Below are positions 16,288 to 39,405 of a stretch of DNA of 46,261 bases, in pieces; position 1 is the first letter of the stretch; every line of letters begins with the position of its first letter. Location: the NCBI GenBank assembly GCA_016185205.1, contig JACPOA010000081.1, positions 1 through 46,261 on the forward strand, written 5' to 3'. The notes below the pieces were generated by a model. That model saw nothing but the letters and a program-made list of their open reading frames with translations. It was not told the DNA's origin and ran no database searches. Source of the DNA: Hyphomicrobiales bacterium (GTDB lineage Bacteria; Pseudomonadota; Alphaproteobacteria; Rhizobiales; Xanthobacteraceae). The position numbers and the translations under genes were made by a program.

Positions 16288-16753
16288 TGACCGGGGCCTC
16301 GACTTGCAGGCCGATGCGGCCCGCGGTTTCCCGCATCTGCCGCCCCATTTCGGCATTGGGGAAATCGAGCACGCGCAGCGTCAGCGTGGCGTCGCAAATC
16401 AATTTGCCGCCGCACTTGATCTTTGCCGCGGTGATCGCGTAGCCGGATCCGTCATGTTCAAGATGGGCGGTGATCGCCAGCTTCTGCCCGGGGGTCACGA
16501 AGGTGCGCAGCTTGGCCTCCTTCACCGCGGCCAGGAACGGCATGCGTTCGAATCGGTTAAGCGCCACAACGAGCCAGCCTGAGGTCTGCGCCATCGCCTC
16601 GATCAGCAGCACGCCCGGCATCAGCGGATAGCCGGGAAAATGTCCTTCGAAAATCGTGCTTGCGGTCGGGACCGTCGCCTCGCTGCTGATCTTGCGGTCG
16701 GCGAGGTTGAGGTCGACGATCCGGTCGATCAGCTGGAAATACTCGAGACGCAT
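16280..16753 (-). CDS. fabZXL: (3R)-hydroxyacyl-ACP dehydratase of the VLCFA cluster
   Basis: Hot-dog-fold dehydratase of 157 residues that removes water from 3-hydroxyacyl-AcpXL during C28 elongation. The FabZ signature is intact: His38 in FEGHFPGYPLMPG and the catalytic Glu52 in LLIEAMAQTSGW. The C-terminal third (LKVxx-type strand in RTFVTPGQKLAITAHL and the AKIKCGGKLICDATLTLRV hairpin) is usual. It lies 13 bases downstream of acpXL, and its stop codon overlaps the next gene's start region, so the genes are likely co-translated. Confidence 0.9.
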   Translation of the reverse strand: MRLEYFQLIDRIVDLNLADRKISSEATVPTASTIFEGHFPGYPLMPGVLLIEAMAQTSGWLVVALNRFERMPFLAAVKEAKLRTFVTPGQKLAITAHLEHDGSGYAITAAKIKCGGKLICDATLTLRVLDFPNAEMGRQMRETAGRIGLQVEAPVNG

Positions 16754-26581: not shown

Positions 26582-26938
26582 ATGTTTGCTGTTCGGACTA
26601 TCGTTGCAGCGATCATATTGAGCGCGCTCGCCGGCCCGGCCTTGGCCGACGCCATCGACGGCAACTGGTGCCACAGCGACGGCCGCCGCTTCAGCATCCG
26701 CGGACCGGAAATCGTCACACCCGGCGGCAAGCAGATGGAAGGGCAATACAGCCGCCACTGGTTCAACTACACGGTGCCGGCGCCGGAGGCGGGCGCCGGC
26801 GAAACCATTTTCATGACGCTGGCGAACGAAAATACCGTGCACCTGCGGCGCGGCGAGCAGGCCTCCGGCAATCCGCAGGAAACCTGGGTGCGCTGCGCGC
26901 CGTCGATCAGCGCGCTGCCGGCTCTGCCGCGGTCTTGA
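26582..26938 (+). CDS. Small secreted protein, unknown function
   Basis: A 118-residue protein with a clear signal peptide (about 22 residues, cleavage after ALA). The mature part begins DAIDGNWCHSDGRRFSIRG and has two Cys (NWCHS and VRCAP) that could pair. It looks like a compact beta-rich periplasmic domain, with GNWCxxDGRxFxIxGP opening strands similar in style to lipocalin-like or DUF-type secreted proteins. I cannot assign a function. It is co-oriented with the nitroreductase, and its 3' end overlaps the convergent rlpA-like gene by 32 bases. Confidence 0.65.
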   Translation: MFAVRTIVAAIILSALAGPALADAIDGNWCHSDGRRFSIRGPEIVTPGGKQMEGQYSRHWFNYTVPAPEAGAGETIFMTLANENTVHLRRGEQASGNPQETWVRCAPSISALPALPRS

Positions 26939-27314
26939 ACGGTGCCGCCGGCTCCTCCGTCGCCGTCACCTTGATCAGCCCGCGCTGCGTCATGCGCAGC
27001 TCCTTGGCGGCGGCGAGCGAGAGGTCGATCACGCGGCCCTTGGTGAAGGGGCCACGGTCGTTGATGACGACCACCACGCTGCGTTTGGTCCTGGTGTCGG
27101 TGACGCGCAGGCGCGTGCCGAACGGCAGGGTCTTGTGTGCGGCGGTAAATTTGCTCGGGTCGTAGTGTTCGCCCGACGCCGTCCGCCCCTTGTAATTCGT
27201 GTCGTAAAATGCGGCGATGCCGGCGAAGCGCATGGGCGCCTTCACGGCAGCCTGCGCGCTCGCGATGCCGCCCGCGAGCATGAGCCCGGTTACCAGCCAA
27301 ACCTTCCATTGCAT
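26907..27314 (-). CDS. rlpA: RlpA-like septal ring lytic transglycosylase
   Basis: A 135-residue exported protein with a signal peptide (MQWKVWLVTGLMLAGGIASAQA) and one double-psi beta-barrel domain. The RlpA motifs are GIAAFYDTNYKGRTASGEHYDP, AAHKTLPFGTRLRVT and VVVVINDRGPFTKGRVIDLS; the Asp of NDRGPF is the presumed catalytic residue. There is no SPOR domain, so it is a minimal version. ATG 27314 gives the signal peptide; the frame opens further upstream to 27392. A sigma-EcfG-type promoter match lies at 27452-27476 on the same strand, suggesting stress-induced expression. Confidence 0.85.
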   Translation of the reverse strand: MQWKVWLVTGLMLAGGIASAQAAVKAPMRFAGIAAFYDTNYKGRTASGEHYDPSKFTAAHKTLPFGTRLRVTDTRTKRSVVVVINDRGPFTKGRVIDLSLAAAKELRMTQRGLIKVTATEEPAAPFKTAAEPAAR

Positions 27315-27451: not shown

Positions 27452-27476
27452 AACGTTGCCGTAGAACAAAGGTTCC
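27452..27476 (-). promoter_or_regulatory. Sigma-EcfG-type promoter candidate upstream of rlpA
   Basis: On the minus strand GGAAC (27476-27472), 16 bases, then CGTT (27455-27452). This is an exact match to the alphaproteobacterial general stress promoter pattern. Transcription would start near 27445, about 130 bases before the rlpA ATG at 27314. It sits directly downstream of the iron-permease gene, which reads the same way. Confidence 0.6.
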
Positions 27477-27482
27477 GTTGCT

Positions 27483-28034
27483 TTATTTGTTGGTGGGTTG
27501 AGACGATTGCCGCGCCGGTTTAGTTCGCTGTGCCGCGCGCTTCTTGTGATTGCCGCCATTACGCTGGCCGGTGCCGCGGCGGGCGCGGCGTTGCTCGATG
27601 CTCTGCGTCAGCCGTTCGACCCGCGCGCGCGACTTGTCGTGCAGCTCCTGCAATTCCTCGTCGTTGAGATCCTCGATGGCGGCGAACTCGTTCTTGGCGC
27701 CCTTCATCGCCAGCACCAGTTCCGACAGTTTGAGCTGCACCGCCATGATGTCGCGGTTCTGCGTGTTCTGGATCAGGAACACCATCAGGAAGGTGACAAT
27801 GGTGGTGCCGGTATTGATCACCAGCTGCCAGCTGTCGCTGTAATGGAAGATCGGACCGCTGACGATCCAGACCACAATCACCATCACCGCGAGCAGGAAG
27901 GCGGTCGGATGACCGGTCCAAGTCGCGGTCGTCTGTGCGAACTGGTGAAATCTGGCGGACAGTGTCGAGGCGAAATCCGCGTGCGATCCGTTCGGATGCG
28001 GGGATTGGTGTTGATGGATGGTGGTTTGTGTCAT
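27483..28034 (-). CDS. Low-affinity iron permease family protein
   Basis: A 183-residue membrane protein of the low-affinity iron permease family (PF04120). After a His-rich N-terminus come two membrane helices (about 46-62 and 74-92, separated by a short loop GPIFHYSDSWQLVIN). The family hallmark follows: FLIQNTQNRDIMAVQLKLSEL, then ELHDKSRARVERL and a basic Arg/Lys/Gln tail. The start at 28034 is preferred to the open frame up to 28103. A sigma-EcfG-type promoter lies at 28045-28070, so close that the mRNA would be nearly leaderless. Whether it truly transports iron is not established for bacterial members. Confidence 0.78.
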   Translation of the reverse strand: MTQTTIHQHQSPHPNGSHADFASTLSARFHQFAQTTATWTGHPTAFLLAVMVIVVWIVSGPIFHYSDSWQLVINTGTTIVTFLMVFLIQNTQNRDIMAVQLKLSELVLAMKGAKNEFAAIEDLNDEELQELHDKSRARVERLTQSIEQRRARRGTGQRNGGNHKKRAAQRTKPARQSSQPTNK

Positions 28035-28044
28035 CGCGGCAGCC

Positions 28045-28070
28045 AACGCGCAGCGGGGCCGCAGAGTTCC
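28045..28070 (-). promoter_or_regulatory. Sigma-EcfG-type promoter candidate upstream of the iron-permease gene
   Basis: On the minus strand GGAAC (28070-28066), 17 bases, CGTT (28048-28045). The pattern is exact, but the predicted start point falls only a few bases before ATG 28034. A leaderless transcript would be needed, which lowers confidence compared with the other sites. Confidence 0.45.
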
Positions 28071-28104
28071 GCTGGCACCGTCTCGCCGCCGCGTGGCGGG
28101 CATT

Positions 28105-29037
28105 TTATTTGAGCTTGGGCAGCTTCTGCTTCAGGCGGGCGATATTGGCCCACGGGTCCTTGCGCAGGCGCGCGAGCCGGGTCTTTAAGTTTTTTACGGT
28201 GTACTGGCTGGCGCTCTTGAGTGCGCCCAACTCCGACCATTCCACCGGCGTCGACACGGCGGCGCCCGGCCGCGCGCGGGTGGAGTAGGGCGCCACCGCG
28301 GTAGCTTCGCGGCTGTTGCGCAGATAGTCGATGAAGATGCGGCCTTTGCGCTTGGCCTTGGTCGCGGTCACGATGTAGCGGTCGGGCGCGTTGCCCGCCA
28401 TGCCCTCGGCCACCGCACGCGCGAAGCCTTTGGCCTCGTCCCAGGATGTCGGCTTGATCGGCAGCACGACGTGCAGGCCCTTGCCGCCGGTGGTTTTGAC
28501 GAAGGTCTTGAGCTTTAGCTCGCTAAGCAGCTTGCGCACCTCGCGCGCGGCGGCGACCACATCGCGCCAGTTCGTGCCCGGACCGGGATCGAGATCGAAC
28601 ACCAGCCGGTCGGCGCGTTCGCGGTCGTCGATGGTGCTGCCGCGGGTGTGGATTTCCAACACGCCGGCCTGCACCAATGCGATCAGCCCATCGAGATTAT
28701 CGATTGAGATGATCTTGTCGCTTTTCTCCGGCACCAGATGCAGATGTTCGGTGGCGACGCCGGCGCTGGTGTGCTTCTGGAAGAAGCATTGGCTGCCGAC
28801 GCCATCCGGACAGCGCAGCAGCGCGATCGGCCGGCCGACCACATGCGGCCGCATCCACTTCCAGACCTGCGTGTAATAGTCGGCGAGATCGCGCTTGGTG
28901 ATGCCGACGTCGTCCCAATAGACGCGATCGGGGTGCGTGAGCGTAATAGCGCCGACTTTGTTCTCCGTCTTGGTCGCTGATTTGGCGATCGGCGCGCTGC
29001 GCCGTTTCGCCGTAGCGCTGGTGTTGGTCGCGGCCAT
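28105..29037 (-). CDS. LigD-type polymerase/primase domain (NHEJ), standing alone
   Basis: A 310-residue LigD POL domain, which adds nucleotides at double-strand break ends in bacterial non-homologous end joining. The domain begins at about residue 26 and includes THPDRVYW, GSQCFFQKH, the catalytic acid pair D148-x-D150 in LVFDLDPGPG, and KTTGGKGLHVVLPI (phosphate-binding Lys/His). It ends in the usual YTVKNLKTRLARLRKDPW. In full LigD it is fused to a ligase and often a phosphoesterase domain; both are missing. In the same frame just upstream there is a remnant of the ligase C-terminus. A start at GTG 29109 is also possible. The catalytic domain looks intact. Confidence 0.82.
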   Translation of the reverse strand: MAATNTSATAKRRSAPIAKSATKTENKVGAITLTHPDRVYWDDVGITKRDLADYYTQVWKWMRPHVVGRPIALLRCPDGVGSQCFFQKHTSAGVATEHLHLVPEKSDKIISIDNLDGLIALVQAGVLEIHTRGSTIDDRERADRLVFDLDPGPGTNWRDVVAAAREVRKLLSELKLKTFVKTTGGKGLHVVLPIKPTSWDEAKGFARAVAEGMAGNAPDRYIVTATKAKRKGRIFIDYLRNSREATAVAPYSTRARPGAAVSTPVEWSELGALKSASQYTVKNLKTRLARLRKDPWANIARLKQKLPKLK

Positions 29038-29154
29038 CGCTTTCACCTCACGCACCACCTCCTTGGTGGACTTGTCCTCGCGCAGGCCCTGGAACGAAGC
29101 GTGCCGCACGCGGTCGTCATGGGTCCAGCCATGGAAATCGACTTCGGTAGCGTA
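29038..29154 (-). pseudogene. ligD: Remnant of the LigD ligase-domain C-terminus
   Basis: Continuous in frame with the polymerase domain, this stretch encodes TEVDFHGWTHDDRVRHASFQ and then GLREDKSTKEVVREV, the ending of the OB-fold part of a LigD ligase domain. Upstream of about 29155 the similarity stops. The simplest reading is that the rest of ligD was deleted, leaving the POL domain with a short piece of ligase. Confidence 0.7.
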
Positions 29155-29311
29155 GTTTAGCGTTCCAGCGACATTAAACGTTGCATCGGCCCCGTGCAGC
29201 TATAGCCGCGATGGCTGTATTTTTTGCGACCCAGGCCGCGGCAATTGACAGGCGGGTTGCATCATAATCTAATTCCGGTTGTGTATATCTCATATTGCAA
29301 GGCGTGGTGTC

Positions 29312-30286
29312 ATGACCTTGATCCGGCCGTTGCTCACGCGCGTGCTGCTGGCGCTGGTGTTTTGCGCCGTTGCCGGACATTCGAGTATTGCGGAAACCTG
29401 GCCGACGCGACCCATCGCCTTAGTCATCGGCTTTGCCGGCGGCACCGGCGATACCATCGGCCGCCCCTTTGCCGAATTTGCATCGAAGGAACTGGGCCAA
29501 CCGGTCGTCGTCGAAAGCCGGCCAGCCGGTGGCGGTATTGTCGCAGCCCTCGGCGTTTCCAGGGCCCAGCCGGACGGCTACACCATCGGCTTGCAGGCGG
29601 TGGGACCGATGATCTTGCGGCCGATCATGGACCCAACGGTTGAATTCGATTCCGAAAAGGATTTCTCGCCAATCGCACTGCTGATCGACACCCCCAATGT
29701 GATTCTCGGCGGCGCTCAATTCTCCGCGCGTTCGGTGCGGGAAACGGTTGACTGGGCGCGACAAAACCCAGGCCGCGTGACGATCGGCCATCCCGGACCG
29801 GGCACCATGGGCCATCTGGCGGCCTTGTTGCTGGCGTCGGACGCCAAGTTTACGGGCAACTACATCGCCTACCGCAACGTGACGCTCATGGTGACCGACC
29901 TGGTCGGCGGACAAATCGACGTCGGGGTCGCGGCCTATAATCCGCAATTGAAGGCGGCGCGTGTCTTGGCAGTCATGACGGCCGAACCGGTCGCGTTCTT
30001 GCCGGGCGTACCGTCGATGCGCCAAGCGGGTTTTCCGGGCGTCTACGCATCGACCTGGTTTGCGCTTTTCGGTCCGCCAAACCTGCCGCCGGACATTGTT
30101 GCAAAACTTAATACCGTCGCGAACGCGTTCCTGCGCAGCGACGATGGCCGAAAACGATTAAATTTAATTGGCGTACGCCCGCTCGGCGGTTCACCCGAAC
30201 GACTGGCAAAAACGATGGCCGAGGACAAAATCCAGTGGTCCAAAGTCATCAAGGACGCCAATATTAAATTGAACGATCAGCTGTGA
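29312..30286 (+). CDS. Bug/TctC-family periplasmic solute-binding protein (copy 1)
   Basis: A 324-residue periplasmic receptor of the tripartite tricarboxylate transporter (Bug) family, which binds carboxylates such as citrate, aromatic acids or amino acids. The signal peptide covers about 27 residues. The family motifs are TWPTRPIALVIGFAGGTGDTIGR, LGQPVVVESRPAGGG, PDGYT and the late VPSMRQAGFPG. No TctA or TctB membrane genes are in the window, as is usual for the expanded Bug family. It starts 275 bases from the ligD fragment. A second copy follows after 22 bases, and a LysR regulator lies convergent beyond it. Confidence 0.85.
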   Translation: MTLIRPLLTRVLLALVFCAVAGHSSIAETWPTRPIALVIGFAGGTGDTIGRPFAEFASKELGQPVVVESRPAGGGIVAALGVSRAQPDGYTIGLQAVGPMILRPIMDPTVEFDSEKDFSPIALLIDTPNVILGGAQFSARSVRETVDWARQNPGRVTIGHPGPGTMGHLAALLLASDAKFTGNYIAYRNVTLMVTDLVGGQIDVGVAAYNPQLKAARVLAVMTAEPVAFLPGVPSMRQAGFPGVYASTWFALFGPPNLPPDIVAKLNTVANAFLRSDDGRKRLNLIGVRPLGGSPERLAKTMAEDKIQWSKVIKDANIKLNDQL

Positions 30287-30308
30287 CAGTGGGGAGCGAG
30301 CGGACATC

Positions 30309-31286
30309 ATGAAAATTATTCAGCTGTTGCTCAAGCGAGCGCTCATTGCCTTTTTGTTTTGCACAGTTGCGGAGCATTCTGTGCGGGCAGAAACCTGGCC
30401 GACGCGGCCCATTGTTATCGTTTTTGGCTTCGGGGCGGGCGGCAGCGCCGACGCGATAACCCGGCGCTTTGCCGAATTTGCATCGAAGGAACTGGGCCAA
30501 CCGGTCGTGGTAGAGAACCGACCGGGCGCCGGCGGCGTCGTGGCCGCGGTCGGTGTCAGCAAGGCCGTTGCCGACGGCTACACGATCATGATGCATGCGA
30601 GTGGGCCGATGATCTTGCGGCCGATCATCGATCCATCGATCGGCTACGATTCGGTAAAGGGTTTTACGCCGATCGTCCTCGTTGGCGAAAGTCCCAACGT
30701 TATTCTTGGCGGATCAAAATTCTCAGCGCGTTCGGTGCAGGACATGGTCGGCTGGGCGAAAAAAAATCCCGGTCTTCTGACGGTCGGGCATCCCGGCCTT
30801 GGCACGGCGGGGCATCTCGGCGCTTTGTTGCTGGCATCGCGCGCCGGCTTCACGGCTAACTACATTGCCTATCGCGATAACGCACAAATTCTGCCCGACA
30901 TCATGGGAGGACAAATCGACGTCGCATCCGTGGCTTATGCGCCGCAATTAAAATCGGCGAATATCCTGGCCGTCATGGCACCCGAACGCGTTGAGTTTTT
31001 GCCGGCTGTGCCATCCATGCGAGAAGCGGGTTTCTCGGGCGTCTATGCGTCGACCTGGTGGGCGCTATACGGTCCGCCGAATCTGCCGCCAGACATTGTC
31101 GCGAGGCTTAATGCCATTATGAATGCATTCTTGCGCAGCGACGTTGCCCGAAAACAAATGGCTTTGATTGGCTTTCAAGGGCTCGGCGGTTCATCCGAAC
31201 AGCTCAGCAAAATGATGGCCGATGAGAAAGCCTTGTGGTCCAAGGTCATCGAGGACGCCAAAATAAAAATGAACGATCCGAAGTGA
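30309..31286 (+). CDS. Bug/TctC-family periplasmic solute-binding protein (copy 2)
   Basis: A 325-residue tandem paralogue of the preceding gene with the same layout: signal peptide to about residue 27, TWPTRPIVIVFGFGAGGSADAI, LGQPVVVENRPGAGG, ADGYT, and VPSMREAGFSG. The phosphate/carboxylate loop is the more typical GFGAGGSADA, while copy 1 has GFAGGTGDT. The nucleotide stretch GCCGAATTTGCATCGAAGGA and the following 18 bases are identical in the two genes exactly 1000 bases apart, pointing to a recent duplication or gene conversion. The different loop suggests different ligands. Confidence 0.85.
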   Translation: MKIIQLLLKRALIAFLFCTVAEHSVRAETWPTRPIVIVFGFGAGGSADAITRRFAEFASKELGQPVVVENRPGAGGVVAAVGVSKAVADGYTIMMHASGPMILRPIIDPSIGYDSVKGFTPIVLVGESPNVILGGSKFSARSVQDMVGWAKKNPGLLTVGHPGLGTAGHLGALLLASRAGFTANYIAYRDNAQILPDIMGGQIDVASVAYAPQLKSANILAVMAPERVEFLPAVPSMREAGFSGVYASTWWALYGPPNLPPDIVARLNAIMNAFLRSDVARKQMALIGFQGLGGSSEQLSKMMADEKALWSKVIEDAKIKMNDPK

Positions 31287-31350
31287 TCGCAAAGGTCCGA
31301 TCTCCTGTCGAGGTGTCTAGGAGAAAACCCCGGGTTCAACGCGCGGGCGA

Positions 31351-31453
31351 TAGAGCATTTTCCGGCGAAGTGGGAACCGGTTCGCTGTAGAAAATGCGAT
31401 CAAATAAGAATCTAGAGCGCGTTTCCGATTCAATAGAACCGGAACGCGCTCTA
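31351..31453. repeat. Rhizobial-type palindromic intergenic repeat (RIME-like)
   Basis: A 103-base element bounded by TAGAGC (31351) and GCTCTA (31453) with two internal hairpins: GCATTTTC (31355-31362) with GAAAATGC (31390-31397), and TAGAGCGCGTTTCCG (from 31413) with CGGAACGCGCTCTA (ending 31453). This matches the two-palindrome design of intergenic mosaic repeats found in many copies in Rhizobiales genomes. Its last three bases supply the TAG stop codon of the LysR gene. It sits between two convergent genes and may also act as a bidirectional terminator. Confidence 0.8.
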
Positions 31454-32341
31454 AGACGGAAACGCGGTTCGGATCGTCTTAAGAACCGCGCGCACCGCGG
31501 GCGATGGTTCGTTTGTCCGGTAAACAACCGAGTCTTTAGAATATCTCGGTGGACCCGCAATATTTCGTACCACGACATCGGAATCGATGATGTTTTTGAA
31601 TGATTCCGGTATAACGGCGATCCCGACATTGGCGCTCACTAGCGTTAGCAAGGAAAGTGCATCTGGCGCGCGCTGGACGATTTGCGGAATCGTGCCGGGC
31701 GGAAGAACCGCGGTGATATTTCGCCAAAAGCCCATCATGGCGTCCAGTTCATAAGCAACGAAGTTTTGTTTCGCTAAGACCGCAGCCGTAATGTGTTTTT
31801 GCTTGGCAAGCGGGTGGTTGCGGTGGACGGCAAGGTAGAAACGTTGACGGTCAATTACATGCTCTGTCACGCCGGGTGGATAGGAGTCCAAGCTCCGCAT
31901 GAATCCGATATCGATGCTGCCAGAGCTGATCGCCTTGATTTGCGGAACGGTCTCCATGCGGTGAATATGGACTAAAACATTGGGTAACGCGGCGCGCGAG
32001 AGTTCGATGACTCGTTTGACGTAGCCTGCCGTCGCCGCCGCAAGGACATAACCCAATTTGACATCGCCGACCTCGCCGCGCGCGGCCTCGCGGGCAAAGC
32101 GCTCGGCTTGATCGAAGCTTTCGATCAAGGCCAGCGCCCGTTTCTGGAACTGCCGGCCGGCATACGTCAGCTCGACTTGTCGTTTCGTGCTGCGCGTGAA
32201 AAGTTCGACGCCGAGGTGCGCTTCAAGCGATTTGATCTGTGCGCTGAGTGTTGGCGGTGCGATGTTCAAACGCTCCGCCGCGCGTGCGAAATGAAGTTCG
32301 GACGCGACGGCGGCGAAGTAGCGCAGATGGCGGACTTCCAT
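31451..32341 (-). CDS. LysR-family transcriptional regulator
   Basis: A 296-residue regulator with an N-terminal winged helix-turn-helix (MEVRHLRYFAAVASELHFAR, then APPTLSAQIKSLEAHLG, residues about 1-60). A substrate-sensing domain follows (about 90-290), with IDIGFMRS and NVGIAVIPESF. The sequence is normal in length and intact. It is convergent with the Bug genes rather than divergent from them, so control of them is possible but not shown by the usual divergent layout. The stop codon lies in the end of the palindromic repeat, so insertion of that repeat may have altered the last residues. Confidence 0.87.
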   Translation of the reverse strand: MEVRHLRYFAAVASELHFARAAERLNIAPPTLSAQIKSLEAHLGVELFTRSTKRQVELTYAGRQFQKRALALIESFDQAERFAREAARGEVGDVKLGYVLAAATAGYVKRVIELSRAALPNVLVHIHRMETVPQIKAISSGSIDIGFMRSLDSYPPGVTEHVIDRQRFYLAVHRNHPLAKQKHITAAVLAKQNFVAYELDAMMGFWRNITAVLPPGTIPQIVQRAPDALSLLTLVSANVGIAVIPESFKNIIDSDVVVRNIAGPPRYSKDSVVYRTNEPSPAVRAVLKTIRTAFPS

Positions 32342-32570
32342 CGGAAAATTATGAGGCTGGGCCTCGCGAAAATCCAGTGCCGCCTTGACGGCAGGCGCCC
32401 GATGTCCGCGCCGTGGTGTTAGCGCCAGCGAAAAACGAATGGGTCATAACGAAAATTAATGCCTTAAAGGCCCTCAATAAATACGACATAAATTGCGAAT
32501 AATCGTTCGCTGGACACGATTAGCGCGGCCTTTTTGCAACCGGATAGCGATGGGTCGCGCTGATATCGCA
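32342..32570. other. Intergenic region upstream of lysR
   Basis: A 229-base gap, AT-rich around 32440-32500, that should contain the LysR promoter on the minus strand. No T-N11-A site or other operator stood out clearly enough to report. Confidence 0.3.
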
Positions 32571-32783
32571 TCAGGCGAATACGCCCGCCGAAAGTGTGAG
32601 CTCGCTCTCAGGCGCGATCCGTTCGTGCTTTTCGGCCACGCTTTTGATGCGATAGCGCGGGTCTGTGGGATCGCCATCCGGCGCCGGAACGAGGTGGCGA
32701 ATTTCATAGGGGCCGATGGCGGTCGATCGCAGCACGGTCGGCGTCAGATTGACGATTTGACCGATGATGAATTTATGCGTCAT
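32571..32783 (-). CDS. Small conserved protein, unknown function
   Basis: A 70-residue protein, MTHKFIIGQIVNLTP at the start and IKSVAEKHERIAPESEL near the end. The pattern (a beta-rich KFxxGQxVxLTP opening, YEIRHLVPAPDGDPxDPRYRIKS middle) recurs, to my knowledge, in small proteins of Bradyrhizobium and relatives, where it is annotated hypothetical. ATG 32783 is preferred over the extension to 32798. It resembles a small SH3-like or KOW-like barrel in style, which is only an impression. It lies alone between lysR and the kinase operon. Confidence 0.65.
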   Translation of the reverse strand: MTHKFIIGQIVNLTPTVLRSTAIGPYEIRHLVPAPDGDPTDPRYRIKSVAEKHERIAPESELTLSAGVFA

Positions 32784-33117
32784 GACGATACCCCTCATTG
32801 CAATAGCACCTGGAAGCAGAGAACGAACGATCTCCCGTCCGACTGCGCCGTCAGTTCGGCTAGTTCGCTGGCGATGATTCTATATGGTGATGATCCGCTC
32901 GAATTGCGACGAAATTGATGCCGGTTTCGTGATTGGCCGCTGCAAGATGAACGAAGTGCGCTTGCGAAGGCATTCGTGATCGCAATTCACTCGACTTTTT
33001 GCTTTTAAAGGCGCACGGTTTACCCAATACGATGCTCATTGCGTCCCGGCGTTTACGCCAACCTAGCGACAATTCGCGCTGCATTGCCCTCGTTCGAAAG
33101 CGAGGCGGAAGGCACTC
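32784..33117. other. Intergenic region upstream of the histidine kinase
   Basis: A 334-base gap between divergent genes. A long minus-strand open frame crosses it, but it is the shadow of the kinase gene and has no recognisable protein. No sigma-EcfG-type site was found upstream of the kinase; nothing else is evident. Confidence 0.35.
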
Positions 33118-34227
33118 ATGTTGACTTCGACGTTGCCGAAGATCGCGCCATTCGTCGATATTCAAGACGGAATTACGCTGGCCAGCGCCATCGTCGATAC
33201 CGTTCGCGATCCGCTCGTGGTGCTCGACGATAAATTGCACGTCATCGCGGCCAGCCGGTCGTTTTATCAAAGCTTCCGGCTTGTCTCCGAAGACGTGCAC
33301 GGCCGCTTGCTCTATGAGATTGACGGCGGTCAATGGAACATCCCGGAGCTCCGCAAGCTCCTGGAAACGATCGGCAAGGATCATGCGCCGATCGATGGAT
33401 ATGAGGTCGACCGTGAATTTCCCGCGATCGGCCGGCGCACCATGCTGCTGAACGCGCGCAAGGTCTTCTATGAGCGGGGAACTCATTCCACCATATTGCT
33501 GGCGTTTGAGGATGTGACCAGCCGGCGCGCCGTCGAGCGACAGATCGAGGCGCTGCTGCGGGAAAAGGACATGCTGCTGGAGGAGATGCAGCATCGCGTT
33601 GCCAACAGCCTGCAGATCATCGCCAGCATTCTGCTCATCAAGGCGCGCACCGTCCAGTCGGAGGAGACACGGTTGCAATTGCAGGACGCGCATCAGCGCG
33701 TGCTCTCGGTAGCCGCGGTCCAACAGCACTTGAATGTCGCCAGCCGCAGCGCGCAGATCGAGATCGGCACCTACCTTGCGAAGCTGTGCGAAACATTGGC
33801 GCAATCGATGATCGGCGACAGCCGGCCGATCTCGCTGAAAGTCGAGGCCGATGCCGGAACGGTCATTTCCCATCAGGCCGTGAGCATTGGCCTGATCGTT
33901 ACCGAACTGGTGATGAATGCGCTGAAGCATGCCTTCCCCGGCGTGAAGCCAGACGCTGCGATCCTCGTGTTCTACAAAGTCGCGGATACCGACTGGGAGC
34001 TGACGGTCGCGGACAATGGCATCGGCAAGCCGGATAACGGAAAAGCCCAGGGCAAGCAGGGGCTGGGCACCAGCCTGGTGCAATCGCTGGCCAAGCAACT
34101 TGATGCCCGCGTCGAAGTGACGAGCGGTCCGCACGGGACATCCGTGTCGATTACCCGCGCGACCTTCAAGTCCATACCGGCGAGTGCGGACAAGGGCGTT
34201 TATTCGACCCAGGCACGCCTCCAATGA
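33118..34227 (+). CDS. Cytosolic PAS-HisKA_2 sensor histidine kinase
   Basis: A 369-residue kinase without membrane segments. Residues about 20-135 form a PAS domain (TVRDPLVVLDDKLHVIAASRSF). The HisKA_2 dimerisation domain carries the phospho-His159 in EEMQHRVANSLQIIAS. The HATPase domain has the N box ELVMNALKHAFPG and the G1 motif ADNGIGKP, then GLGTSLVQSLAKQL. HisKA_2 and HWE kinases are the usual partners of PhyR, whose gene lies about 3.3 kb downstream, so this is a candidate PhyR kinase; this is inference from context. The next gene overlaps its stop by ATGA. Confidence 0.87.
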   Translation: MLTSTLPKIAPFVDIQDGITLASAIVDTVRDPLVVLDDKLHVIAASRSFYQSFRLVSEDVHGRLLYEIDGGQWNIPELRKLLETIGKDHAPIDGYEVDREFPAIGRRTMLLNARKVFYERGTHSTILLAFEDVTSRRAVERQIEALLREKDMLLEEMQHRVANSLQIIASILLIKARTVQSEETRLQLQDAHQRVLSVAAVQQHLNVASRSAQIEIGTYLAKLCETLAQSMIGDSRPISLKVEADAGTVISHQAVSIGLIVTELVMNALKHAFPGVKPDAAILVFYKVADTDWELTVADNGIGKPDNGKAQGKQGLGTSLVQSLAKQLDARVEVTSGPHGTSVSITRATFKSIPASADKGVYSTQARLQ

Positions 34228-34532
34228 CCATGCGAACGAGCCGCAAAATGGTGACATTCCAGAATGCGTTTTCGCTGGCGGCCGGCGACCGTGAATTTTC
34301 CGCCGGAAATTACGAAGTCGTGACTGACGAGGAGCTGGTCGAGGGTGTGTCGTTTCCGGTCTATCGCCGTGTTGCAACCATGATGCTGGTGCCCGCCCAA
34401 TCCCATCAGGCATCGTCGGTCGAGATGCTGACGATCGATCCGCGCGACCTTGCGGCGGCGCTGGAACGCGATGTCTTGACGGCGGACGCCTTCGCGGTGA
34501 AAGCCCGCCCAGCTTCGGCACAGGTGACATGA
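34224..34532 (+). CDS. Small protein in the kinase operon, unknown function
   Basis: A 102-residue protein that starts within the last codons of the kinase gene (ATGA overlap) and is itself overlapped by the next gene in the same manner. The sequence VTFQNAFSLAAGDREFSAGNYEVVTDEELVEG suggests a small beta-rich domain, with no signal peptide or membrane helix. Coupled translation implies that it functions with the kinase and the DUF1488 protein. I recognise the type from Bradyrhizobium relatives but know no function. An alternative start codon is at 34230. Confidence 0.65.
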   Translation: MTMRTSRKMVTFQNAFSLAAGDREFSAGNYEVVTDEELVEGVSFPVYRRVATMMLVPAQSHQASSVEMLTIDPRDLAAALERDVLTADAFAVKARPASAQVT

Positions 34533-34837
34533 TGTGGCCGTTCTCGCAGCCTCGCAGCGCCAATGTCACCAACATGGCGGTGAGTTTTCCCAACCAGAGC
34601 CGCAGCTACGATGCGACGCGGCGCGCGATACGCTTCTGGGGATACGATCGTTCGATGGAAAGCTCGTTCTATGTGACCGCGGATGCGCTCGAGCGGATTC
34701 AACCGAATCTCAAGCCCGACGTGGCCGGTCTTTTGCGGGCCTTCGATAGCAACCGCGACCGCATCTATGCGATCGCCGCCAAGGTCTACGCCCGCGGCCG
34801 CAGAGGCTCGTACGACCTCAATGTCGCCGACGTTTGA
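34529..34837 (+). CDS. DUF1488-family protein
   Basis: A 102-residue protein matching the DUF1488 pattern: VSFPNQSRSYDATRRAIRFWGYDRSMESSFYVTADAL in the first half, then a helical stretch ending RIYAIAAKVYARGRRGSYDLNVADV. The family has no established function and is common in Proteobacteria. It is the third gene of a translationally coupled set (ATGA overlaps at 34224-34227 and 34529-34532) headed by the histidine kinase. Confidence 0.75.
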   Translation: MMWPFSQPRSANVTNMAVSFPNQSRSYDATRRAIRFWGYDRSMESSFYVTADALERIQPNLKPDVAGLLRAFDSNRDRIYAIAAKVYARGRRGSYDLNVADV

Positions 34838-34959
34838 GCGCGCCGCTTTGCCCGAAAAAACGCGCCGCGCCGGGCGATAATTTACCTACGCCTCGATCGT
34901 CGTCACGCTTGCGAAGCAGGCGACAATCCAGGCCGCAACACAGAACAAAGGAACGACTT

Positions 34960-35181
34960 ATGGCGAACGACGTAAAGAAACCGGGAAATCTGCGCGCCAA
35001 TGCAAGGCCGACCGAAGGCTATGTATTGGCCGTCGATGGTAAGTTGAAAATGCAATACGAGAGCGCAAAAGAGGCCGCGGAGGCCGGTGCAAAGCTCAAG
35101 CAGAGCTTCCCGGTGATCCAGGTCACCGTCTACGATGCGGCGAACCAAACCTATACTCCGGTGGAGATTGAAACGACCTGA
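34960..35181 (+). CDS. Small cytosolic protein, unknown function
   Basis: A 73-residue protein preceded by a good ribosome binding site (AAAGGA, 7 bases before ATG). It has a short polar start, then GYVLAVDGKLKMQYESAKEAAEAGAKLKQSFPVIQVTVYDA, an alternation of strands and one amphipathic helix rich in Ala, Glu and Lys. There is no signal peptide. Similar short proteins occur in Bradyrhizobium relatives. The place among stress genes suggests a stress role, but no sigma-EcfG site was seen in the 122 bases upstream. Confidence 0.65.
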   Translation: MANDVKKPGNLRANARPTEGYVLAVDGKLKMQYESAKEAAEAGAKLKQSFPVIQVTVYDAANQTYTPVEIETT

Positions 35182-35218
35182 GCGGCTGACCGCAGCGCGC
35201 GCATATATGTGCTGACAT

Positions 35219-35243
35219 GGAACAATTAGCGGACCGCGACGTT
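35219..35243 (+). promoter_or_regulatory. Sigma-EcfG-type promoter candidate upstream of the glycine-zipper gene
   Basis: GGAAC (35219-35223), 16 bases, CGTT (35240-35243): an exact match to the general stress promoter. The next plus-strand gene starts at 35462, so the leader would be about 210 bases. Confidence 0.6.
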
Positions 35244-35461
35244 ATTACTTCGATCGAAGCAAATTCGTACTGAAAATCGTTTTTACCGATAGAACTCGCA
35301 ACGATCGTCTCATTCGCAGGTCCGGCGCGGTTCGCTCCGGACGGCAATTACGACACGTTGACTGAGGCCGACTCAGCGCAATTCCGTCAAGCGGGCAGGG
35401 CAGTCGGTTGCCCATACCGAGCAGCACTTAACTTCAAGTGCTTTGACCAAGGAGAGTTCTC

Positions 35462-35707
35462 ATGCGCTCCATACTCAAAGCGAGCATTCTGGTATTGACG
35501 CTGACCGCCATGCCGTTCGCGGCCCAGGCCGGAACGCTGGAAGGCGTTGCCATCGGCGCTGGCTCGGGCGCCCTCATTGCCGGACCTCCCGGCGCGGTCG
35601 TCGGCGGCGTGATCGGCGGCGTGGTTGGCGGCCCGAATATCGTGCGGCATCGTCATCGCCACTGCTGGACCAACGGCAGCGGCAATCGTCGCTGCGCATG
35701 GCGCTAA
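35462..35707 (+). CDS. Small secreted glycine-zipper protein
   Basis: An 81-residue precursor with a signal peptide (about 23 residues, ending AAQA). It is followed by a Gly/Ala-rich stretch, GVAIGAGSGALIAGPPGAVVGG, then VIGGVVGGPNIV, of the glycine-zipper type, able to pack in or against a membrane. The end is basic and His-rich with two Cys (RHRHRHCWTNGSGNRRCAWR). An AAGGAGAG ribosome binding site precedes the ATG, and a sigma-EcfG-type promoter lies 219 bases upstream. It is probably a periplasmic or outer-membrane stress protein; the exact role is unknown. Confidence 0.72.
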   Translation: MRSILKASILVLTLTAMPFAAQAGTLEGVAIGAGSGALIAGPPGAVVGGVIGGVVGGPNIVRHRHRHCWTNGSGNRRCAWR

Positions 35708-35828
35708 GCGTTCAATCGACGCGCGCTGTGTAGCGACCCGGGGCGGCACGCGCCGCTCCGGTCTTTTGCGATTGATATGTGTCCGGCTTTTCCGGCATTC
35801 TCGCCGGCACCTGAGGGAGATTGCTCCG

Positions 35829-36086
35829 ATGAATGGTATTCGCGCTTTTGCCGCCGCCGCCGTCATGCTTGCGGGGTCGCTCGCCTGTGGCGTGGCCGTC
35901 GCGCAAACGTCCAGCCCGTCCACGGCCGCGCAGGTCGAGACGTGGACCACGAAACAGTGGGAAGCGGCGAAGAAAAAATGGGTCAAGGACAAGACCAAGT
36001 GGTCCAATTGCCAGACGCAATCGAGCAGGCAAAAACTTGAAGGCCGCAAGAACTGGTCGTTTCTCTATACCTGCATGACCGGCTGA
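35829..36086 (+). CDS. Small secreted protein, unknown function
   Basis: An 85-residue precursor with a signal peptide of about 25 residues (MNGIRAFAAAAVMLAGSLAC and on, ending AVAQ). The mature part is short, Trp- and Lys-rich (WTTKQWEAAKKKWVKDKTKW) with two Cys (NCQTQ and YTCMTG) likely to pair in the periplasm. GGGAGA precedes the ATG by about 9 bases. I recognise the WEAAKKKWxxDKxKWxxC pattern as one repeated in small rhizobial secreted proteins, with no known function. It lies 14 bases before the next small gene and may share its transcript. Confidence 0.68.
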   Translation: MNGIRAFAAAAVMLAGSLACGVAVAQTSSPSTAAQVETWTTKQWEAAKKKWVKDKTKWSNCQTQSSRQKLEGRKNWSFLYTCMTG

Positions 36087-36100
36087 AATGGGGGGCCGTC

Positions 36101-36247
36101 ATGAATCGTACTGCCATCGCGGTCGTTATCGCTGTGCTCGCCGTCGCCACGGCGGTGCTCGGCTATCAGCTCTACCAGGAACGGCACAAAACCACCGGCG
36201 TCGAGATCAGCATCGGCGATCGTGGCATTTCCATCGAGAAGAAGTAG
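36101..36247 (+). CDS. 48-residue single-pass membrane peptide
   Basis: Short gene encoding 48 residues: an N-terminal membrane helix (IAVVIAVLAVATAVLGYQLY, about residues 5-25) and a polar tail ending GVEISIGDRGISIEKK. The helix-plus-tail layout and an ending of this type are familiar from small Bradyrhizobium proteins. It lies between two other small genes on the same strand with short gaps, which supports it being real. A GGGGGG run 4 bases before the ATG could act as the ribosome binding site. Confidence 0.6.
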   Translation: MNRTAIAVVIAVLAVATAVLGYQLYQERHKTTGVEISIGDRGISIEKK

Positions 36248-36301
36248 TGCTGAATCGACAGGCGAAAGATTCAATAGATCCTATCAAGGGAGATTAAGAT
36301 C

Positions 36302-36466
36302 ATGTCACTCAGTCTCATTCTTGTTATCCTCCTTGTCATCTTCCTGTTCGGTGGCTTCAGCGGCCGTTTCGGCGGCTACGGCTACGGTTATGGGCACGGT
36401 GGTGTCGGCCTCATCGGCACGATTTTGATCATCATCGTCGTTCTGATGTTGCTCGGACGGATTTGA
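36302..36466 (+). CDS. DUF3309-like small hydrophobic protein
   Basis: A 54-residue protein with two hydrophobic helices (SLSLILVILLVIFLFGG and GVGLIGTILIIIVVLMLLGRI) separated by a Gly/Tyr-rich turn (GRFGGYGYGYGHGG). This is the layout of DUF3309, a family of small inner-membrane proteins frequent in Proteobacteria. AAGGGAG precedes the ATG by about 8 bases. Members are often associated with stress responses, but a mechanism is not known to me. It is the last of a run of small plus-strand genes and is convergent with ecfG. Confidence 0.75.
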   Translation: MSLSLILVILLVIFLFGGFSGRFGGYGYGYGHGGVGLIGTILIIIVVLMLLGRI

Positions 36467-36587
36467 CGCTGCCAGGCGATCTCAGCTTGCCAGCCGCGCG
36501 ATCGGCAACGTGATGATGCCGGTGGCGCCGCTGCGCATAGCGACGGCCGACGGCGTCAGCAAAAGACTTTCATGAGATGACGTGTGA

Positions 36588-37136
36588 CTATTCGCCGCCG
36601 CCGGCCAGCACCGCGCGGGTCTGCTCGTCGGGCCCGAACTCGTCGGCGCTGTTGATCGACAAAATCTCGGCCAGCCGCGTGCGCGCGCGGTTGACGCGCG
36701 ACTTGATGGTGCCGACCGCGCAGCCGCAGATATGGGCGGCCTCTTCGTAGGAGAACCCCGATGCGCCCACCAGGATGAGCGCTTCGCGCTGATCGGGCGG
36801 CAGGTGGGAGAGCGCGTCGCGGAATTCCCGAAGCTCGACCTGACCGTGCTGCTCGGGCTGCGTCTTCAGCGTCTCGGCATAGTGGCCTTCGCTATCCTCG
36901 ACCTCGCGCCGACGCTTGCGATATTCCGACCGGAAATGATTGCGCAGGATTGTGAACAACCAGGCCGACATGTTGGTGCCGGGCTGGAACGAGTCGATAT
37001 TGGCGAGCGCGCGCAGCAGCGTCTCCTGCACCAGGTCGTCCGCGCGATCCACGTTCCCGCACAGCGAGATCGCGAATGCGCGGAGGCTGGGCACCGCGCC
37101 GAGAACGGCCTTGCGCACCGACTCGTCCATTGCCAT
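36588..37136 (-). CDS. ecfG: General stress sigma factor EcfG
   Basis: A 182-residue extracytoplasmic-function-type sigma factor that directs the alphaproteobacterial general stress response. Region 2 (about 15-80) has RADDLVQETLLRALANIDSF and AWLFTILRNHFRSEYRKRRR; region 4 (about 110-165) has LSHLPPDQREALILVGASGFSYEEAA, then GTIKSRVNRARTRLAEI. The identity as EcfG is fixed by its neighbours: nepR immediately upstream with a TGATG overlap, and phyR divergent. In unstressed cells NepR holds it; phosphorylated PhyR takes NepR away. Confidence 0.93.
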   Translation of the reverse strand: MAMDESVRKAVLGAVPSLRAFAISLCGNVDRADDLVQETLLRALANIDSFQPGTNMSAWLFTILRNHFRSEYRKRRREVEDSEGHYAETLKTQPEQHGQVELREFRDALSHLPPDQREALILVGASGFSYEEAAHICGCAVGTIKSRVNRARTRLAEILSINSADEFGPDEQTRAVLAGGGE

Positions 37137-37357
37137 CAGCGCTTATCCTTATTGCCATTTCCGTCCAGGCGATTGAGCAGTTCGGTGAAACGGTCCGGTA
37201 CCCCCTGGCTTACGACGTCGTCGTACAGGGCACGCAATTGCTGACCGAGGCGAGCCTGCACCTCGCGCCCGAGCTTGGCGGGCTTGGCATGGTCCTTGTG
37301 GCGACTGGCCGCGGTTTCCATTGTTTTTTGTTGTCCCACGGGTTTGCGCTCGTTCAT
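37136..37357 (-). CDS. nepR: Anti-sigma factor NepR
   Basis: A 73-residue anti-sigma factor that binds EcfG. The conserved core LGREVQARLGQQLRALYDDV and then VSQGVPDRFTELLNRLD, two helices joined by the VPDRF turn, is the NepR signature. The frame opens further upstream to 37420, but a start at 37357 is chosen because the sigma-EcfG-type promoter at 37421-37445 would begin transcription near 37414. The stop and the ecfG start share one base (TGATG), giving coupled synthesis of the pair. Confidence 0.9.
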   Translation of the reverse strand: MNERKPVGQQKTMETAASRHKDHAKPAKLGREVQARLGQQLRALYDDVVSQGVPDRFTELLNRLDGNGNKDKR

Positions 37358-37420
37358 CTCTCGACCCCAAATCCCTTGCCCAAGCCGGGCACAGAATCCC
37401 CCTCTGATGCTCTCACTCAA

Positions 37421-37445
37421 AACCCGTGAATTGGCATATGGTTCC
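37421..37445 (-). promoter_or_regulatory. Sigma-EcfG-type promoter candidate for nepR-ecfG
   Basis: On the minus strand GGAAC (37445-37441), 16 bases, GGTT (37424-37421). It matches the pattern apart from the first base of the -10 (G for C). Autoregulation of nepR-ecfG is the norm in this system. It lies 9 bases from the divergent phyR promoter candidate, so the two start regions are back to back. Confidence 0.6.
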
Positions 37446-37454
37446 GTCGGACAG

Positions 37455-37479
37455 GGAACTTTTTTGCCATGGACACGTT
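37455..37479 (+). promoter_or_regulatory. Sigma-EcfG-type promoter candidate for phyR
   Basis: GGAAC (37455-37459), 16 bases, CGTT (37476-37479): an exact match to the sigma-EcfG consensus. It lies about 90 bases upstream of the phyR start codon. Confidence 0.72.
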
Positions 37480-37568
37480 ATGAACCCTGAGTAACTTTAC
37501 ACGGCTCAAGGTTTTTTGGGGGCAACGCCTGCGCTAGGCCTCAGGCGCACTCGGTTCGGGAGGGATTC

Positions 37569-38369
37569 TTGACGACATCTCAATCAGTTGCGCAGCATCT
37601 GCCATATCTTCGCCGCTACGCCCGGGCGCTCTCGGGCACCCAGCCCTCGGGCGACGCCTATGTGGCGGCCACCCTGGAGGCCCTGGTCCAAGACCCCAAG
37701 GTGCTCGGCACCAGCGCGTCGACCCGCATCGCGCTCTATCGGCTGTTCACGAAGATCTGGAATTCGGTGGCCTTGAACGGCAAGCCCACGATTGGCGGCG
37801 CCGGCCAGCCGGTCGAGCGCCATCTCGCCCAGATCGCCCCCATGCCGCGGCAGGCCTTCCTGCTGGTCGCGCTTGAGGGACTGTCGGAAGACGATGCCGC
37901 CAAGGTACTCGATATCGACGTGCCGAAGCTGCGCGACCTGGTCGAACAGTCCGGCCGCGAGCTCGCCTCCGAGATCGCCACCGACGTGCTGATCATCGAG
38001 GACGAGACCTTCATCGCGCTCGATCTGGAAGGGCTGGTGGAAAGCCTCGGCCATCGCGTGCTCGGCGTCGCGCGCACGCATAAAGAGGCGGTGGATTTGG
38101 CCAAGGCCAAGCGGCCGGGGCTTATTCTGGCCGACATCCAGTTGGCGGACGGCAGTTCCGGTCTCGATGCGGTCAACGAGATGCTGCGCAGTTTCGAGGT
38201 GCCGGTGATCTTCATCACCGCCTATCCCGAGCGCTTCCTCACCGGCGAACGGCCGGAGCCGGCCTTCCTGATCGCCAAGCCGTTCCAGCCGTCGACGGTT
38301 TCGGCGGTGCTCAGCCAGGCGCTATTCTTCGAGCGCAACGCCAAGCGGCGCGAGCGGCGGGTAGGCTAA
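37569..38369 (+). CDS. phyR: General stress response regulator PhyR
   Basis: A 266-residue anti-anti-sigma response regulator. The N-terminal half (about 1-135) mimics an ECF sigma factor and, when exposed, binds NepR. The C-terminal half is a receiver domain with E144-D145 in IIEDETF, phospho-acceptor D189 in LILADIQLADG, T217 in FITAYPERF and K237 in IAKPF. The FITAYPERFLTGERPEP segment is characteristic of PhyR. The start is TTG at 37569 with GGGAGGGA about 4 bases before it. It is divergent from nepR-ecfG, with paired sigma-EcfG-type promoters between. Confidence 0.94.
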   Translation: MTTSQSVAQHLPYLRRYARALSGTQPSGDAYVAATLEALVQDPKVLGTSASTRIALYRLFTKIWNSVALNGKPTIGGAGQPVERHLAQIAPMPRQAFLLVALEGLSEDDAAKVLDIDVPKLRDLVEQSGRELASEIATDVLIIEDETFIALDLEGLVESLGHRVLGVARTHKEAVDLAKAKRPGLILADIQLADGSSGLDAVNEMLRSFEVPVIFITAYPERFLTGERPEPAFLIAKPFQPSTVSAVLSQALFFERNAKRRERRVG

Positions 38370-38420
38370 TCCAATATCGAGATTCCCGCGCGCGGCAGAT
38401 CCTCGCCGCGCGCGGGGTGG

Positions 38421-38445
38421 GAACATATCTCCGCGCCCGCCGTTA
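38421..38445 (+). promoter_or_regulatory. Sigma-EcfG-type promoter candidate upstream of the 38505 gene
   Basis: GGAAC (38421-38425), 16 bases, CGTT (38442-38445): an exact match. The predicted start near 38452 leaves a leader of about 50 bases before ATG 38505. Confidence 0.68.
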
Positions 38446-38504
38446 CTTCTCTGTCGTCCTTACGGCTCATCGTCGCGATCGCCGGGGGATGGTGGAGAAA
38501 GCCG

Positions 38505-38801
38505 ATGCGCGGGTTCGCGTCTTACTTGCTGGCAGGCATCCTGGTGGTGGTGGCGATGGATTTTATCGCGCCTCCCATCGGCCTCGGTTTGCCGGTCGGC
38601 GCGTGGCCGACGGTCGAGCAGGGGTCATTGGTGCAGTCGGTCAACCGCGGCAATAAAGGCGACCGGTTGAGTGTGCCGACGGCCGTCGACAAGTCGCAAG
38701 CACCGCGCAAGTCGCCGACAGTTCTGGTCGGTTGCGATCCGGTATTCAGCCCATTGTCGGCATCTGCGCGCGCGAATGTTGCACGGCATTGCGTTGCATA
38801 A
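38505..38801 (+). CDS. Small membrane-anchored protein, unknown function
   Basis: A 98-residue protein with an N-terminal hydrophobic segment (SYLLAGILVVVAMDFIAPPIG) that may be an uncleaved anchor or a signal. A polar middle part follows, and the C-terminus reads VLVGCDPVFSPLSASARANVARHCVA with two Cys. The CDPxFSPLSxSxxxNxxRxC ending is one I associate with small exported proteins of Bradyrhizobium relatives. The gene sits 136 bases after phyR and has its own exact sigma-EcfG-type promoter, so it is probably a general stress target. Confidence 0.7.
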   Translation: MRGFASYLLAGILVVVAMDFIAPPIGLGLPVGAWPTVEQGSLVQSVNRGNKGDRLSVPTAVDKSQAPRKSPTVLVGCDPVFSPLSASARANVARHCVA

Positions 38802-38859
38802 CTGATTGTTGCGATTGCCGAAGTGGACCGTTGTCATTATACCCCGCCGCCGGGGCGGT

Positions 38860-38885
38860 GGAACCTTGTTGCACCGCTGTGCGTT
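38860..38885 (+). promoter_or_regulatory. Sigma-EcfG-type promoter candidate upstream of the DUF992 gene
   Basis: GGAAC (38860-38864), 17 bases, CGTT (38882-38885). The predicted start near 38892 leaves a leader of about 28 bases containing an AGAGGAGA ribosome binding site before ATG 38920. Confidence 0.65.
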
Positions 38886-38919: not shown

Positions 38920-39405
38920 ATGCATAGGCCATTGAGCGCTTTTGCCGCCCTTGCGATTGTCGCGGCGGTCGCGTTGCCTGCTCCGACCATGGCGCAGGCA
39001 CCCAATCGGACCAAGGTCGGCACCCTGACCTGCGATATCTCCGGCGGGATCGGTCTCATCATCACGTCGCACAAGGATGTGGCCTGCATGTTCACGCCAT
39101 CGCAGCCCGGCCCGCGCGAGGTCTACACCGGGTCGATCAACAAGTTCGGCCTCGATATCGGCGCCACGACCGGTGGCGAAATGATCTGGGCGGTCTATGC
39201 GCCGAGTACGCGCAAGTTCGGCGCGCTCGCCGGTCACTATGCCGGGGCGAGTGGCGAGGCGACGGTCGGCGCGGGCGTCGGCGCCAACGTTCTGATTGGC
39301 GGCTCCGACCGCACCGTATCGCTGCAACCGGTATCGGTGCAGGGCCAGGTCGGCCTCAATCTGGCGGTTGGCGTGGCGGAACTTAATCTGCGCCCGGCGC
39401 GATAA
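38920..39405 (+). CDS. DUF992-family secreted protein
   Basis: A 161-residue precursor with a signal peptide (about 26 residues, ending MAQA). The mature protein has the DUF992 pattern: KVGTLTCDISGGIGLIITSHKDVACMF, YTGSINKFGLDIGATTGGEMIWAVYAP, ALAGHYAGASGEATVGAGVGANVLIGG, and a beta-rich end. The two Cys in TLTCDIS and VACMF probably pair. The family is periplasmic and of unknown role, common in Rhizobiales. Promoter at 38860 and terminator at 39432 mark it as a single-gene unit, probably under stress control. Confidence 0.82.
   Translation: MHRPLSAFAALAIVAAVALPAPTMAQAPNRTKVGTLTCDISGGIGLIITSHKDVACMFTPSQPGPREVYTGSINKFGLDIGATTGGEMIWAVYAPSTRKFGALAGHYAGASGEATVGAGVGANVLIGGSDRTVSLQPVSVQGQVGLNLAVGVAELNLRPAR

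Follow-up and report, generated by a model that had tools for sequence, protein, structure and literature searches.

A conserved cluster of probable sigma-EcfG-type promoters around the PhyR-NepR-EcfG locus of a Pseudolabrys-like bacterium

Seven EcfG-type sites surround the regulators of the general stress response

The stretch analyzed here, positions 1 to 46,261 of contig JACPOA010000081.1 from a Hyphomicrobiales bacterium (46,261 bases, referred to throughout as the window), carries the genes of the general stress regulators PhyR, NepR and EcfG amid seven sites of the form GGAAC-N16/17-CGTT or GGAAC-N16-GGTT. RNA polymerase bearing sigma-EcfG, whose gene lies at the center of the cluster, very probably uses these sites as promoters, under the control of the PhyR-NepR-EcfG switch. 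We infer the use of these exact sites as promoters, and from the established biology of the family we would expect EcfG to recognize them and the partner switch to operate in this organism. As a whole, the cluster is a real, conserved and ordinary instance of a known general stress system in a Pseudolabrys-like bacterium.

A pattern scan of the window returned all six exact GGAAC-N16/17-CGTT sites that the first-pass annotation had listed, one of them moved by a single base (from 38421-38445 to 38420-38444), as well as the seventh, which reads GGAAC-N16-GGTT. Two divergent promoters stand between nepR and phyR: that of nepR-ecfG at 37421-37445 on the minus strand (GGTT, with 63 nt from the -10 box to the start) and that of phyR at 37455-37479 on the plus strand (GGAACTTTTTT...CGTT, 89 nt to the TTG start), their -35 boxes lying back to back across a 9-bp gap (37446-37454). 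Further plus-strand sites precede the genes of a small anchored protein (38420-38444, 60 nt to the start) and a DUF992 protein (38860-38885, 34 nt). The remaining sites are probable promoters of a glycine-zipper gene (35219-35243, plus strand, 218 nt), of a low-affinity-iron-permease-family gene (28045-28070, minus strand, between the permease gene and ligD, 10 nt to an ATG at 28034) and of rlpA (27452-27476, minus strand, 137 nt). The window holds no other exact site at a spacer of 16 or 17, with one extra match each at spacers 15 and 18, which the annotation had not mentioned, and a second GGAAC-N16-GGTT match (16534-16558, plus strand) lies inside a gene of the opposite strand.

All six exact sites are intergenic, and the next called gene is co-directional for all seven sites, in line with the annotation, which had them oriented toward gene starts. 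Gene calls came from a simple script based on codon usage, with starts picked by score; the 98-aa gene at 38505 escaped it, and for the site at 38420 it returned the gene after that one. The annotation's expectation of fewer than one exact match in 46 kb also holds, at 0.71 for equal base use and 0.69 for the window's 61.8% G+C, and the genome average gives 1.02 per window where six are observed. The corresponding Poisson probabilities of six or more sites (∼5e-4 from the genome average, 2e-5 when intergenic sites outside the window set the expected density) are indicative only, because the region was chosen for containing the sites.

Identity of the regulators and relation to known systems

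The three regulator genes fit the known system in sequence and arrangement. The ecfG product (36588-37130, minus strand) contains Pfam sigma-70 region 2 and region 4_2 domains and qualifies as an EcfG-type extracytoplasmic function (ECF) sigma factor by its match to NCBIfam PRK12540 (316.6 bits, cut-off 307), with PDB 5uxx as its best solved relative (6e-57); the ECF15 model as such is absent among the EcfG matches listed. The nepR gene (37136-37357, minus strand) is co-oriented with ecfG at a distance of 5 bp, in a predicted operon, and its product is the only match in the genome to PF18557 (56.7 bits, cut-off 25.7); against the narrower NCBIfam NepR equivalog it scores 31 bits, below the cut-off of 100, and it matched none of the solved structures searched. 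PhyR, the anti-anti-sigma response regulator (37569-38369, plus strand, TTG start), joins a sigma-like domain to a receiver domain (PF22029, PF22233 and PF00072, all above cut-off), matches the NCBIfam PhyR family at 363.3 bits (cut-off 240) and resembles PDB 4g97 (8.5e-86). EcfG-type promoter sequences lie upstream of both phyR and nepR-ecfG.

The partner switch established for this class is one in which NepR holds EcfG, phosphorylated PhyR removes NepR, and EcfG then raises both units, resulting in amplification (PMC8103513), and both divergent units carry EcfG promoters (PMC4814048, PMC8103513). The published consensus, GAAC-N16,17-C/GGTT or GGAAC-N16-CGTT, comes with the same divergent layout (PMC4814048, PMC3892343, PMC8103513). 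The window thus shares with the alphaproteobacterial PhyR-NepR-EcfG (ECF15) locus its three regulators, its divergent EcfG-driven units and the GGAAC-N16/17-C/GGTT motif (PMC4814048, PMC8103513), but differs in that its nepR -10 box is GGTT, common to its clade, and in that no kinase gene stands between phyR and the DUF992 gene. In Sinorhizobium meliloti, rsiA1 (of rsiA1-rpoE2) and rsiB1 are rpoE2-dependent, each with a start mapped experimentally behind an RpoE2 promoter, whereas the window's sites are known from sequence (PMC3616915). The EcfG1 regulon of Rhizobium etli has the same GGAAC-N16-CGTT motif and autoregulation (PMC3892343); R. etli has two EcfG factors, unlike the genome studied here, with its one NepR and a next-best EcfG match that is 42% identical.

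By analogy with these systems, phosphorylated PhyR would draw NepR off EcfG under stress. Free EcfG would then raise phyR and nepR-ecfG from the two divergent back-to-back promoters, and would also switch on neighboring genes for envelope and small proteins, namely the small anchored protein, the DUF992 protein, the glycine-zipper protein, the PF04120 membrane protein and RlpA, along with several dozen further genes across the genome.

In known loci of this type PhyR is phosphorylated by an HWE/HisKA_2 kinase, whose gene is often adjacent. The kinase that would feed this switch is a point of difference from close relatives. At 11 of 20 same-genus loci an HWE-type kinase match lies between phyR and the DUF992 gene, whereas the equivalent interval of the window (38370-38500) has no PAS-HWE kinase gene, and a whole-genome search with the relatives' phyR-adjacent PAS-HWE kinase gave a best match of 40% over part of its length. 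A HisKA_2 PAS kinase is encoded at 33118-34227; it scores 105 against a PhyK equivalog cut-off of 750 and is only 24-27% identical to the relatives' phyR-adjacent kinase.

Site location, gene content and conservation argue for a working promoter class

The window's own genome (4.38 Mb in 112 contigs, 96% complete) holds 97 exact GGAAC-N16/17-CGTT sites, alongside 96 matches to the reversed pattern and 64 to the same half-sites with a 19-20-bp spacer. With the total matching that of the reversed pattern, we dropped raw over-representation as an argument and turned to location. The annotation had named equal density of the motif inside genes as an outcome that would speak against it; outside the window contig, 49 of the 91 exact sites proved to be intergenic, compared with 10 of 63 for the spacer control (Fisher P 2e-6), and 34 of 91 were intergenic with a co-directional next gene within 300 nt, compared with 4 of 63 (Fisher P 7e-6). 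Because site location differs from the spacer control, the motif seems to define a promoter class that is functional in this genome, and it is concentrated around its own regulators. If the control's ratio of intergenic to genic sites is taken as background, ∼8 of the 49 intergenic sites would be accounted for and ∼40 left outside the window.

Behind the intergenic sites elsewhere in the genome stand 36 co-directional genes within 600 nt, 30 of which were scanned for families. These include HSP20, an RpoH-like sigma-70 factor (our own label), a trehalose-phosphatase, CsbD, DUF3309, DUF1328, DUF3096, two DUF1236 proteins, CBS, GCS2 and LemA; less expected were IF-3, a cytochrome P450 and a glycosyltransferase, and eight had no family. 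Hsp20 and CsbD are targets of the general stress response. Trehalose synthesis (PMC8092242) and rpoH2 (PMC3616915) are documented targets as well. By intergenic enrichment and gene content together, the motif marks a predicted genome-wide regulon. The GGTT form is at best a minor -10 variant in the genome, because GGAAC..GGTT occurs at 47 sites vs 70 for its reversed pattern and is intergenic in 9 of 30 sites fetched, five of these nine being followed by a co-directional gene.

Two single cases from the genome scan stand somewhat apart. The gene for translation initiation factor IF-3 (L138, G000:C55) begins 57 nt behind an exact EcfG-type site, making it an unusual candidate stress target. Elsewhere, two exact intergenic sites lie ∼480 bp apart (L004 and L005, G000:C7:27205-27707) with a next called gene that is not co-directional, and these could possibly be EcfG-driven small RNA starts.

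We then compared the sites with those of relatives, taken from an EcfG search of named genomes that gave 80 loci, the close ones belonging to Pseudolabrys and other Xanthobacteraceae. Site counts allowed [CG]GTT within 300 nt upstream; orthologue starts were extrapolated from tblastn, and alignments beginning after residue 40 and upstream stretches shorter than 250 nt were dropped. A site was found upstream of nepR in 58 of 70 relatives (35 of these with CGTT), of phyR in 54 of 70, of the small anchored protein gene in 12 of 14, of the DUF992 gene in 14 of 21, of the glycine-zipper gene in 5 of 7, of the permease gene in 16 of 30 and of rlpA in 9 of 22, which supports the five genes that the annotation had proposed as likely targets; DUF3309 gave 5 of 10. 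Upstream of the neighbor genes ligD (0/20), kelch (0/12) and LysR (0/6) no site was found in the relatives, and ecfG itself rarely has one (1/78). Four control spacers gave 0 to 7 matches for any gene, the highest for nepR. Antisense matches were frequent for nepR (54/70) and phyR (57/70), because each region includes the other's promoter; for the anchored protein there were 4 in 14 relatives, and the remaining genes gave between 0 and 3. Twenty same-genus loci give the same picture, in a set that overlaps the named one, so that the two are not independent. Among the relatives are metagenome-assembled records titled Betaproteobacteria (L205), Kaiserbacteria (L272), Parcubacteria (L280) and Gammaproteobacteria (L281) whose EcfG relatives are 97, 66, 55 and 55% identical, which suggests that these contigs are misbinned or misnamed.

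Several of these results weigh against reading the sites as EcfG promoters: the raw genome-wide count is no higher than that of the reversed-pattern control, 42 of the 91 exact sites outside the window fall in called genes, nepR also matches [CG]GTT at spacers of 19-20 (5/70) and 20-21 (7/70), and the rlpA and permease sites are present in only part of the relatives. The first of these would favor pure chance, in which the six nine-base hits in 46 kb are luck and their orientation toward genes is hindsight. We regard this as extremely improbable, since site location is far from that of the spacer control and the same promoters recur before orthologues while the gap between the regulator promoters has diverged in sequence; conservation speaks against it in particular at the sites of nepR, phyR, the small anchored protein and DUF992. 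Single sites, such as those of the permease or glycine-zipper gene, may be chance matches in this strain.

A further point on the same side is that the motif could be shared, as the EcfG query has six matches in its own genome, EcfG included. Many ECF factors have a common AAC core in the -35 box, and the promoters could then be real yet mostly serve a different ECF factor whose -35 element resembles GGAAC. This is very unlikely here: EcfG is favored by the CGTT -10 box at 16 or 17 bp, by the placing of sites where they would give autoregulation, before nepR-ecfG and phyR, and by the genes that make up the genome-wide set, whereas the next-closest match has only 42% identity, and the sole exact site in the 5 kb surrounding it falls within another gene. 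That 42% match is adjoined by a gene that, by eye, resembles an anti-sigma factor.

The nepR -10 box is a trait of the lineage

To place the GGTT site of the window, we used a 67-row tree built on EcfG and PhyR together. It puts the window within a 26-row Pseudolabrys-type clade (support 100/99) in which the nepR -10 box is never CGTT but GGTT (23 rows) or TGTT (3 rows). A separate 7-row Rhodoplanes-type clade has AGTT, and the other 34 rows have CGTT, save L268 with TGTT. Because the whole 26-row clade lacks CGTT at nepR, the seventh site is a lineage feature and not noise, and the published consensus C/GGTT admits GGTT as a variant (PMC4814048). The trait does not follow a strict genus rule, as CGTT does occur at nepR in two Pseudolabrys-titled records: L264, which lies outside the clade, and L231, which is off the tree because no phyR was found beside its nepR. 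This last locus (L231 / L110) has nepR-ecfG with its CGTT promoter and no phyR match next to it.

The nepR and phyR promoters stand back to back at a nearly constant spacing

Across the divergent nepR/phyR loci (the L205-L284 set), the arrangement GTTCC-N5..11-GGAAC recurs in 67 of 69, the window included, compared with an average of 0.08 loci in mononucleotide shuffles of the same regions. The two exceptions are L256, with an apparent change in one of the boxes, and L284, whose gap is 19 bp. In sequence the gap is not conserved. Its length varies little across the 67 loci, with a variance of ∼0.3 per bp vs 4.5-4.8 for the box-to-start distances, where the gap is taken as the smallest with a plausible -10 box, so that its range begins at 0. 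Within the 20 closest loci the contrast is modest (0.03 vs 0.07 and 0.19 variance per bp), and low gap variance does not prove selection, because the loci are related by descent.

Blind searches for the pattern with gaps of 0 to 30 covered 397 genomes from the order, 106 of them with a match, and 387 from the class, 39 of them with a match, two draws with six genomes in common. At 94 distinct places taken from the order-wide matches listed, with one incomplete row left out, the gap is 8-10 in 30, and a T-tract beside a box, as in the phyR promoter, is seen at 15, all with a gap of 7-10. When 59 loci were fetched, the phyR-bearing ones had a gap of 5-10 in 20 of 25 pairs, one of them the window, and a second group of 23-28 bp in the other five, the phyR match being weak or not beside the pair in two loci. 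Divergent GGAAC pairs at loci without a phyR match had a gap of 5-10 bp in 7 of 36 and no preferred gap. The same 5-11-bp type of spacing is thus recovered at phyR loci of other families. Beside this, L224, L227 and L229 seem at first to have a gap of 24-25 bp, yet in each a further GGAACT, with no recognizable -10 of its own, lies at 9-10 bp from the nepR box; in these loci a tandem second GGAACTTT box lies downstream of the first, which would look like a duplication of the phyR promoter with a shift of ∼15 bp.

An inverted repeat with nearly constant spacing could also be the operator of a dimeric regulator, in which case the halves would not be two -35 boxes. This is very unlikely, because each half has its own xGTT -10 box at 16 or 17 bp (67 of 67 on the nepR side and 58 of 67 on the phyR side, taking the best of the two spacers), the gap ranges from 5 to 11 bp, unlike that of a rigid operator, and the half-site is the same GGAAC that occurs at single promoters. 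We therefore treat the repeat as two divergent promoters set nose to nose.

Whether this placing is a working part of the switch, with a spacing that was selected and not merely inherited, is a more tentative matter, and we think it possible but doubtful. With the -35 boxes only 5-11 bp apart, a pair of EcfG-RNA polymerases would hardly be able to occupy both promoters at full strength, so that EcfG would be divided between making its inhibitor NepR (plus more EcfG) and its liberator PhyR, and the close spacing may lead to competition or coupling between the promoters. How strong and how long the stress response is would then depend on how the two -10 boxes compare in strength, and where whole clades have replaced CGTT at the nepR -10 box, by GGTT in the Pseudolabrys type or by AGTT in the Rhodoplanes type, this could be a tuning of the ratio. 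By tally, CGTT is found on both sides at 22 loci, on the phyR side only at 28, on the nepR side only at 11 and on neither at 6. The idea that a weak -10 box on one side is paired with a strong one on the other was not supported (Fisher P 0.17, with rows related by descent). A full-text search, with subscription journals mostly outside it, returned no published treatment of the nepR/phyR -35 box spacing that we recognized. These nose-to-nose promoters are the only part possibly new to a specialist, and they offer a testable point on how the PhyR:NepR:EcfG ratio is set.

Predicted target genes

The analysis provides a checked list of general-stress promoters for a Pseudolabrys-type genome, from a group represented here almost entirely by metagenome assemblies, and candidate targets backed by conservation in the DUF992 protein, the small anchored protein, the PF04120 membrane protein and RlpA. 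The predicted targets downstream of phyR are the 98-aa small anchored protein (38505-38801, plus strand), which has no Pfam family and homologues in the 14 relatives counted, and the secreted DUF992 protein (38920-39405, plus strand; PF06186, 1e-51). The weakest single assignments are rlpA (9 of 22 relatives), the permease gene (16 of 30, and a -10 box only 10 nt from the ATG) and the glycine-zipper gene (seven relatives counted, and a 218-nt leader). The rlpA product (26907-27314, minus strand) is an RlpA-family DPBB protein (PF03330, with TIGR00413 above cut-off).

The glycine-zipper-like small secreted protein (35462-35707, plus strand) was assigned from its sequence and has no Pfam family. 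Its predicted leader of 218 nt compares with 48-107 nt in the five relatives with a site, and no known RNA accounts for this length, because an Rfam scan of the window returned nothing at gathering score. The PF04120 'low affinity iron permease' family protein (27483-28034, minus strand; 5e-51, scanned from the longer frame start at 28103) is encoded next to a LigD polymerase-domain gene. Since its -10 box lies only 10 nt from the sole plausible ATG in the window, the predicted mRNA would be nearly leaderless in this strain, whereas in 13 of 15 relatives with the site an in-frame ATG follows 29-59 nt after the -10 box; the exceptions are L215, with its last ATG at 14 nt, and L212, with only a TTG overlapping the box. 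Between these two target genes, two adjacent and similar genes occupy 29312-31286, whose products we take to resemble periplasmic binding proteins of the tripartite-tricarboxylate type.

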